This document shows positions 2,221-32,852 of a stretch of DNA of 64,000 bases, piece after piece. Origin of the DNA: Sulfurimonas paralvinellae (GTDB lineage: Bacteria > Campylobacterota > Campylobacteria > Campylobacterales > Sulfurimonadaceae); the NCBI RefSeq assembly GCF_014905135.1, contig NZ_CP041406.1:1302001-1366000 (forward strand). Direction: 5' to 3'. Position numbers and translations under genes: made by a program. Below the pieces are notes generated by a model, which was given only the letters and a program-made list of their open reading frames with translations, had not been told where the DNA came from and searched no databases. Every line of letters starts with the position of its first letter. The first letter of the stretch is position 1.

Positions 2221-2238
2221 TGTGATATAATTATCACA
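2221..2238 (+). promoter_or_regulatory. Promoter -10 box inside an inverted repeat, upstream of the riboswitch
   Basis: TGTGATATAATTATCACA consists of 7-bp arms (TGTGATA/TATCACA) around TAAT, and a consensus -10 box TATAAT (2225-2230) sits within it. The expected transcription start, about 2237-2240, falls just before the riboswitch P1 helix at 2242. The arms resemble Crp/FNR-family half-sites, but the 8-bp gap between TGTGA and TCACA is not the standard 6. A dimeric regulator bound here would block the -10 region. The operator role is inference. Confidence 0.6.
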
Positions 2239-2241
2239 TTG

Positions 2242-2333
2242 ATAAATATAAGAAAAGCCAACCTTACTGTGAAGTAAGCACGGAAAGTTATGGGTCTTTG
2301 TAAAAAGATCGCCAGACTACCAAATGTATTTAT
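2242..2333 (+). promoter_or_regulatory. GEMM-I riboswitch (cyclic di-GMP class I, possibly cGAMP variant)
   Basis: All three helices of the GEMM-I fold can be drawn. P1 pairs 2242-2250 (ATAAATATA) with 2325-2333 (TGTATTTAT), 9 bp with one G-T. P2 is CTTACT/AGTAAG (2263-2268/2273-2278), closed by a GTGA tetraloop as expected for the tetraloop-receptor contact. The conserved internal strands GCCAACC (2257-2263) and CGGAAAG (2281-2287) follow, then a GGTCTTT/AAAGATC hairpin and the 3' strand GCCAGACTACCAAA. The CGGAAAG form resembles the Geobacter GEMM variants. Aligned so that position 21 (C) pairs with position 46 (G), the ligand-reading position 20 is G (c-di-GMP); a one-base shift would make it A (3',3'-cGAMP). 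A T-run at 2342-2348 follows, but no clear terminator stem is seen, so the expression platform is unresolved. Confidence 0.72.
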
Positions 2334-2406
2334 ACCCTGCATTTTTTTCTATATCTATCATAATATCAAACACAATGATTTCGTAGATCGTTGGATGGAG
2401 AATATT

Positions 2407-26533: not shown

Positions 26534-27355
26534 GTGGAAAAAGACAATGCAATTTTTAAAATCATCACTAATGAGACAAGAGAAAGTACCGAACCCATGG
26601 AAATAGTAACTCCTACTATTTATGCTTCCGTCTTTTCCAAGTTTGCCGACAAACATGACCTGTCTCTTGAAAATGAGGAAGAAATTTCACACAATATTCT
26701 TAAAGATGAGTGCTCTTTTTTAACTGAGCTGCAGACAAAAACATCAGAAAATGCAAATCGCTTAAGCAAAAATACAAAAAAAGCCATCAATGCGATCAAA
26801 GATAAAAATGACACACTGCTTAATGAGGTGCTACACGAAACAGAAGCACTGCGACTTGAAGTGGAAAAACTACGTGAATCCGTTTATAAAGATGAATTAA
26901 CACATGTATATAATCGAAAATGGCTTCATGACAATTGTATGCAAACAGACAAGGAGTCTTTCAACCAAGAAGGTGTTTTAGCAATGATCGACTTAAATTA
27001 TTTTAAACTCATCAATGACACATATGGTCATGTCATCGGAGATAAAGTGCTTATTTTTATAGCTAACAGACTAAAAAGCATCAACAAAAATGTCATTCGA
27101 TACGGCGGCGATGAATTTATTATTCTTTTTCCGAAAAACAGTTCAATTGAACATACTAGAGAACTATTGGATAGAACAAGAGAGAGTGTCTTATCCAAAA
27201 AACTCAAAGCCCATGAAGAGATGTTTACACTTAGTTTTTCTTTTGGTGTTGCCAGCTTTAAAAGTGGTAATAAACTTGCAAAAGTCCTCGAAGATGCCGA
27301 CAAAAGCATGTACAATGATAAAATCAATATAAAAAAGAGAATCACAGGCATCTAA
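26534..27355 (+). CDS. Cytoplasmic diguanylate cyclase (GGDEF)
   Basis: The product has 273 residues from the GTG at 26534, which has AAAGGA 5 nt upstream; the frame is open further upstream, but that segment has no SD and overlaps the divergent promoter region. The N-terminal 115 residues are helical and charged with no membrane segment. The C-terminal GGDEF domain has an intact RYGGDEF active site and an N-terminal DELTHVYNR. The RxxD inhibitory site normally found just upstream of GGDEF reads SINK here, so product inhibition at that site is not expected. The N-terminal domain may sense a signal or mediate dimerisation; the signal is unknown. Confidence 0.9.
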   Translation: MEKDNAIFKIITNETRESTEPMEIVTPTIYASVFSKFADKHDLSLENEEEISHNILKDECSFLTELQTKTSENANRLSKNTKKAINAIKDKNDTLLNEVLHETEALRLEVEKLRESVYKDELTHVYNRKWLHDNCMQTDKESFNQEGVLAMIDLNYFKLINDTYGHVIGDKVLIFIANRLKSINKNVIRYGGDEFIILFPKNSSIEHTRELLDRTRESVLSKKLKAHEEMFTLSFSFGVASFKSGNKLAKVLEDADKSMYNDKINIKKRITGI

Positions 27356-31612: not shown

Positions 31613-32852
31613 ATAGAATTTCTTTAGGCTCTCCTATAAAGTAACCTTGAGAGTAGTCTATTCCCAACTCTTCAATCTTTTGAAGGGTTGCTTCATTATG
31701 GACATACTCTGCAATGACCTTAATACCACTCTTTTTGCAAAACTCTACAATTGTTTCAACAATTAAGAGGCTCTTCTCATTTTCCAGAATATCCTTAATG
31801 AATATACCATCAATTTTCAGATAATCCGGGTGCAGTTCTAAAAGTCTGGAAAAATTAGAATTTTCCATACCAAAGTCATCCAAAGCTATTTTAAATCCTC
31901 TCTTACGTAATGATCTAATCTGCTCCAACATATTTGATTCTGTTAATGTAACAATATCTTCCAATAATTCCAGAACAACTCTCGATGGATCAATATTGTA
32001 CTTTTGAACATGAAGCATCAAAAACTCTTCAAGATAGCCTAAATTTATATCATTGGATGTAATATTGATAGAAAATTCATAATCGGTTGAATGAAAGACC
32101 TTAAATGCATTTGCAACAATTCGACGAGTGACTAATGACAATGTCCCTGTTATACGACATGCTTCCATAAAACGTATGGGTGAAGCTAAATTATTCCCAT
32201 CATTAATCCTTGCAAGACATTCATACTTTTCAATTTTCTTCGTTTTATTATTACGAATAGGCTGAAAAAAACCAAGTAGTTTTTCATCTTCTATAGCACT
32301 ACGGATCTTGTTAACCCAATAAATATTTTCCTGCTGTTTTTTTGCATATCCTGATTTCGTTTCAAAGATTTTATAGGAACTTTTTTTATAGAGTCTTGCT
32401 TCATGCACTGCTGCAGCTGCGTGATTGAGTGTTATAATACCATTACCCATAGCAACACCGATTGTGACTGAAATCTTTATGATAATATTATCATGATCAA
32501 GTTCAATTTCTGTCTGATTAAAAAAAGAGATAACAGATTCTGAAAAATCTTTAAGCTCTCTAAAGTTAAAAAAATCATTTACTATAAAAACGAACTCGTC
32601 ACCGTCAAAACGAAATAGTTGCGCATTTTGCGGCTTTAACAATGTTAAATATTTTGCAATTTCAGTCAATATTTCATCACCGACAACATAACCATAAGTA
32701 CTGTTGATATTGTTAAAATTATCTATATTGACAACAAAGATATTAAGACGACTATTGAGTTTTATATATTCAAGTAAAGCAAAATGATTATCTAACCCAG
32801 TTAATTGGTCTTTATAAAAATCCCAATCTCTTTTCTCTAGCTGAAAACTCAT
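31599..32852 (-). CDS. Soluble GGDEF/EAL protein, probable c-di-GMP phosphodiesterase
   Basis: The product has 417 residues and no membrane segment. The N-terminal GGDEF domain is degenerate (RFDGDEF in place of RxGGDEF) and probably inactive as a cyclase, perhaps GTP-binding. The C-terminal EAL domain (about 175-415) keeps catalytic-type residues: ECLAR (the EAL signature), an Asn in INITSND, the Glu in LELLED, LDDFG, KIDGIFIKDIL, a Glu in IAEYV and the QGYFIGEP end. It therefore looks like an active PDE. It lacks the HAMP and periplasmic domains of LapD. It converges on the SulP gene and lies downstream of flgH and the transglutaminase-like gene. Confidence 0.9.
   Translation of the reverse strand: MSFQLEKRDWDFYKDQLTGLDNHFALLEYIKLNSRLNIFVVNIDNFNNINSTYGYVVGDEILTEIAKYLTLLKPQNAQLFRFDGDEFVFIVNDFFNFRELKDFSESVISFFNQTEIELDHDNIIIKISVTIGVAMGNGIITLNHAAAAVHEARLYKKSSYKIFETKSGYAKKQQENIYWVNKIRSAIEDEKLLGFFQPIRNNKTKKIEKYECLARINDGNNLASPIRFMEACRITGTLSLVTRRIVANAFKVFHSTDYEFSINITSNDINLGYLEEFLMLHVQKYNIDPSRVVLELLEDIVTLTESNMLEQIRSLRKRGFKIALDDFGMENSNFSRLLELHPDYLKIDGIFIKDILENEKSLLIVETIVEFCKKSGIKVIAEYVHNEATLQKIEELGIDYSQGYFIGEPKEILSNSQ

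Follow-up and report, generated by a model that had tools for sequence, protein, structure and literature searches.

A c-di-GMP-I riboswitch ahead of a small exported protein family in Sulfurimonas, with a predicted Vc2-like translational OFF switch

The Vc2 riboswitch of Vibrio cholerae is a translational OFF switch in which P1 serves as the switching element (PMC9262584). Reporters of the Geobacter GEMM-Ib type, unlike the OFF switch predicted here, are ON switches and operate via anti-terminator formation (PMC6456294). Full-text searches found no paper on a c-di-GMP riboswitch in Sulfurimonas, Epsilonproteobacteria or Campylobacterota. Here, we analyzed a stretch of 64,000 nucleotides from Sulfurimonas paralvinellae (contig NZ_CP041406.1, positions 1,302,001 to 1,366,000; hereafter the window), in which one RNA is a genuine c-di-GMP-I riboswitch. 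The riboswitch class is known; the small exported protein family that forms its target is new.

The aptamer architecture and the G20/A47/C92 pocket are those of Vc2, and P1 stability as the switching element and a translational OFF logic are predicted to be shared as well. Several features set the locus apart from Vc2. P2 opens with CC/GG (GC/GC in Vc2) and has a relaxed internal loop (AAC/CAC), the expression platform comprises a separate conserved anti-P1 strand and a hairpin around the AUG, and the gene under control encodes a small exported protein of a new family. With the Geobacter GEMM-Ib aptamers the window aptamer has in common a GNRA-capped P2 and a C-G pair that opens P2 after J1/2, whereas the ligand-determining base is A in Geobacter and G in the window. 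The variant model RF03167 (c-di-GMP-I-GGC), which belongs to the same clan, gave an overlapping match of 52.1 bits; however, this score lies below its cut-off of 59, and position 47 is A in the window but G in the variant consensus. The features of the locus, in window coordinates, are as follows.

2203-2231, + strand: sigma-70-type promoter, with -35 TTGCAA (2203-2208), a 17-nt spacer and -10 TATAAT (2226-2231)
2242-2250, + strand: P1 5' strand ATAAATATA, pairing with 2325-2333 in the ligand-bound form (9 bp)
2247-2324, + strand: c-di-GMP-I (GEMM-I) aptamer, RF01051, with pocket bases G2257 (position 20), A2284 (47) and C2320 (92)
2258-2283, + strand: P2 in the RF01051 alignment, made up of CC/GG, an internal loop, a 6-bp stem and a GTGA tetraloop (2269-2272)
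2286-2318, + strand: P3 hairpin in the RF01051 alignment
2325-2333, + strand: P1 3' strand TGTATTTAT, partner of 2242-2250
2344-2359, + strand: anti-P1 strand TTTTTCTATATCTATC, complementary to 2241-2256 and conserved in relatives
2358-2410, + strand: predicted start-codon-sequestering hairpin, TCATAATAT (2358-2366) with ATATTATGA (2402-2410)
2397-2400, + strand: Shine-Dalgarno sequence GGAG, conserved in the alignment
2407-2676, + strand: 89-aa exported protein (ATG 2407, stop 2674-2676) with a putative C-terminal beta-signal (...VHIALNFRF)

The whole 64-kb window was scanned with all 4227 families of Rfam 15. Only two matches exceeded the curated cut-offs, one tRNA and the c-di-GMP-I aptamer, which scored 56.7 bits against a gathering threshold of 35 (E 2e-8). 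The full RF01051 alignment contains no non-standard pair, and the window copy is the only one in the 2.08-Mb genome. An initial annotation, made from the letters of the sequence, had proposed a GEMM-I architecture from a 9-bp P1, a GTGA-capped P2, the CGGAAAG strand (2281-2287) and P3; all of these elements are present, and the covariance-model score that it called for bears the assignment out. The stems are conserved in relatives, with 97% of the cells of P1, P2 and P3 paired over 23 distinct sequences and two pairs showing compensatory change. Taken singly, P2 was paired in 100% of cells, with one compensatory pair, and P3 in 99.6%. Class, coordinates, promoter and target gene thus stand as first read, while the ligand base, which had been left open, does not. 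Not recorded in the initial annotation were anti-P1, the hairpin predicted to sequester the start codon, the protein's beta-signal and the wide spread of the riboswitch across genus and order.

The consensus -10 box noted at the outset is TATAAT at 2226-2231, with TTGCAA 17 nt further upstream. A -10 box matching at least five of six bases is found 8-13 nt ahead of the P1 5' strand (GATAA) in 23 of 24 relatives, mostly as TATAAT at 8-9 nt. This conserved spacing places the transcript start at the P1 5' strand. An inverted repeat, TGTGATA-TAAT-TATCACA (palindrome TGTGATATAATTATCACA, 2221-2238), has its centre on the -10 box; it is common only to the window and one other locus (L010) and is possibly an operator.

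To describe the expression platform, 24 loci with the window's kind of 5' UTR were aligned. Beyond the P1 3' strand, the loci keep a strand resembling TTTTCTTTATCTATC, whose partner is GATAAATA. The resulting anti-P1 helix (4-11/129-136) is paired without exception (161 cells, 23 sequences), and the three pairs that change all go to G-U; since the helix barely varies, its covariation is uninformative and it counts as conservation. The anti-P1 duplex was calculated at -9.9 kcal/mol, compared with -3.9 kcal/mol for P1. On folding, the ligand-free window RNA favours anti-P1 by 3.5 kcal/mol, and hence ligand energy would be needed for P1 to form. Roughly half of the loci show either a balance between the two helices or a preference for P1.

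The hairpin around the AUG is more stable than shuffled sequences in the window (z -3.2) and in most loci. Over 21 loci, its native strands matched each other better than exchanged strands did in each of 5000 permutations, a test that is inflated by the kinship of the sequences. Covariation in this helix is modest, with a score reached by 5 of 500 shuffles and two pairs changed on both sides, and at some loci (L033, L034 and those of the L054-L064 type) the helix is weaker or the Shine-Dalgarno sequence is paired in its place. The cost of opening the ribosome binding site (-12 to +6) was higher with P1 forced than with anti-P1 in all 24 loci (mean 8.7 versus 3.1 kcal/mol; window 8.1 versus 3.3 kcal/mol). 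Shuffling the linker reduced the difference in the window from 4.8 to 1.9 kcal/mol, so that part of it survives. When the window RNA was folded without constraints, anti-P1 and the AUG hairpin proved partly compatible, which makes the amplitude of the switch uncertain.

These data suggest how the leader may operate. The dedicated promoter would start an mRNA that begins with the P1 strand of the riboswitch. When c-di-GMP is lacking, the segment 2241-2256, which comprises the P1 5' strand and the purine-rich J1/2, would pair with anti-P1 (2344-2359), loosening the base of the AUG hairpin and making ribosome binding possible. When c-di-GMP is present, the aptamer would lock P1 (2242-2250/2325-2333) and release the anti-P1 strand; the hairpin 2358-2366/2402-2410 could then shut completely around the start codon and so block translation. 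The small exported protein would accordingly be made in the low-c-di-GMP state, in motile or dispersing cells. We consider it probable, on balance, that the promoter feeds a P1-controlled, Vc2-like translational switch that governs a small exported, probably outer-membrane and beta-rich protein; OFF is the most likely direction of switching.

The gene behind the switch had been described as encoding an 89-residue secreted protein without a known family, and this description holds. The protein carries a signal peptide, its end (VHIALNFRF) resembles an outer-membrane beta-signal, and neither the protein nor its 17 aligned relatives could be assigned to a Pfam or NCBIfam family. A scan of the genome contigs with the window protein as query returned no relative. 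Removal of the signal peptide would leave a mature product of about 70 residues. A 128-aa in-frame ORF from an ATG at 2290, within the aptamer, was considered and rejected: it has no recognisable Shine-Dalgarno sequence directly upstream, and the length of the frame extension varies among relatives. The AlphaFold2 model of the 89-aa protein contains four strands, at modest confidence (pLDDT 66), and strand amphipathicity exceeds chance for the C-terminal strand only. Trimeric autotransporter anchors are among the structural matches, but these do not rise above noise (Foldseek E 0.24; VIA Z about 4, a value that unrelated folds also reach). Like the anchors of YadA, Hia and AtaA, which it matches weakly in structure, the protein is of similar length and has a predicted four beta-strands per chain and a terminal aromatic residue; unlike them, it lacks a passenger or coiled coil, and no sequence similarity was shown. 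The protein is probably located in the outer membrane and beta-rich, and an oligomeric mini-barrel is a suggestion only. More speculatively, the family may be a new minimal outer-membrane type that Sulfurimonas produces only when c-di-GMP is low, and in which a chain of about 70 residues gives only four strands and at least two chains would build one beta-barrel; we put this forward as a tentative idea.

The occurrence of aptamer and gene was followed through the genus and the order. Within the genus, 66 RF01051 matches above cut-off were spread over 49 of 135 genomes; in the order, 60 of the 349 genomes sampled had such matches (17 of 86 genera), the maximum being 12 copies in one genome. The genes behind these aptamers include NIT-domain and DUF4214 proteins, DUF1592-like lipoproteins, a 500-aa family without a Pfam match and small exported proteins. 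A second small exported family (128-129 aa) stands behind RF01051 aptamers at L007, L012 and L031, the L012 protein ending in GLNIRF. In other genera of the order, neighbouring RF01051 pairs lie about 150-200 nt apart (e.g. G211:C1:966511-966743, G237:C139 and G357:C77) and are probably tandem riboswitches.

A profile search of the genus recovered full-length, intact relatives of the 89-aa protein in 23 genomes; further genomes yielded relatives that were weak or broken. The aptamer is present with the intact gene in all 23 genomes but one (G063, L080); in G125 the gene, at a contig end, is the one behind the L054 aptamer. As in the window, switch and gene adjoin gatB and/or a duf87-atpB pair in 14 genomes. 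At the same place, G032 has a mutated aptamer ahead of a gene with stops, G024 a deletion that fuses the start of the aptamer to the middle of the gene, and G128 a gene remnant only. This pattern of decay indicates that switch and gene tend toward joint loss. A single marginal match was found outside Sulfurimonas, and the family is essentially confined to this genus. At L026 and L052 the gatB-adjacent switch precedes not the small exported protein but a large cysteine-motif lipoprotein (L009/L015 cluster, L015 with a DUF1592 match), a pattern that resembles replacement of the controlled gene.

The same aptamer and ligand could also drive an ON switch or a transcription attenuator, in which an AU-rich hairpin with a T run (2322-2344), or some other fold, would terminate transcription in one state. 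The GEMM-I class is known to include both ON and OFF switches (PMC9262584), the window has a 7-bp hairpin followed by T residues at 2322-2344, and several relatives keep GCATTTTTT. This hairpin, however, reaches just -2.5 kcal/mol and is missing from many relatives, and a search for intrinsic terminators found no terminator-like site within 2100-2750. As the cost of opening the ribosome binding site indicates OFF in 24 of 24 loci, we regard an ON switch or attenuator as rather unlikely. A decayed or non-functional remnant would be in keeping with the decay of the locus in three relatives (L081, L082 and L083) and with the fact that, of the named gatB loci retrieved, only about one in seven keeps the switch. 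Against this stand the conserved aptamer bases, promoter, Shine-Dalgarno sequence and ORF, all intact in the window, and a 5' UTR pattern conserved over 24 loci, which together make decay improbable for the window copy.

The ligand itself was the other point to be decided, and the initial annotation had held that the determining base was G or A depending on alignment, leaving c-di-GMP and cGAMP both open. In the cGAMP riboswitch, A14 lies directly 5' of the P2 pair C15-G40 (PMC6274999), and P2 of the window likewise opens with a C-G pair, a likeness that could speak for a sensor of cGAMP, or of cGAMP and c-di-GMP alike (GEMM-Ib type). The same C-G pair fixes the register, however, and with it position 20 as G2257. 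In the RF01051 alignment, G2257 precedes the first P2 pair, A2284 follows P2 and C2320 is the pocket C ahead of the P1 3' strand; these bases correspond to G20, A47 and C92, the c-di-GMP triad, in contrast to the A20 of cGAMP riboswitches. An alignment with A at position 20 was rejected because it needs a P2 that starts with G-C, for which ACGGAAAG holds no G-C partner, and the covariance-model alignment overrules it. G20-CC is invariant in 24 of 24 relatives of the window type, and an A to G change at this base turns a GEMM-Ib riboswitch to c-di-GMP selectivity (PMC6456294). A20 does occur in some related aptamers of the genus: three Sulfurimonas genomes have RF01051 aptamers whose ligand base is A (L050:2959-3039, - strand; L053:213-295, + strand; and L051), each with rpsB 425-465 nt downstream; these are candidate cGAMP-type riboswitches.

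The GGDEF proteins of the genome point the same way as the aptamer base. Hypr cGAMP synthases have Ser or Thr at the GGDEF selectivity position (PMC6456294). Among the 42 GGDEF loci of the genome, 40 were read, several with degenerate domains lacking a readable motif; every recognisable motif is GxxxGD, with the guanine-specifying Asp kept, and none of these shows the Hypr signature, a reading that covers the recognisable GGDEF motifs. Two GGDEF-domain loci lie inside the window, at 26885-27328 and 32442-32813, the latter partial. The ligand is therefore most likely c-di-GMP, and sensing of cGAMP by the window aptamer appears highly improbable.

With c-di-GMP as its most likely ligand, the riboswitch provides a direct and readable c-di-GMP output in a genus that has dozens of GGDEF proteins. 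It also singles out, as a c-di-GMP target that deserves study, a small unnamed family of exported proteins whose signal-peptide and beta-signal features are conserved.
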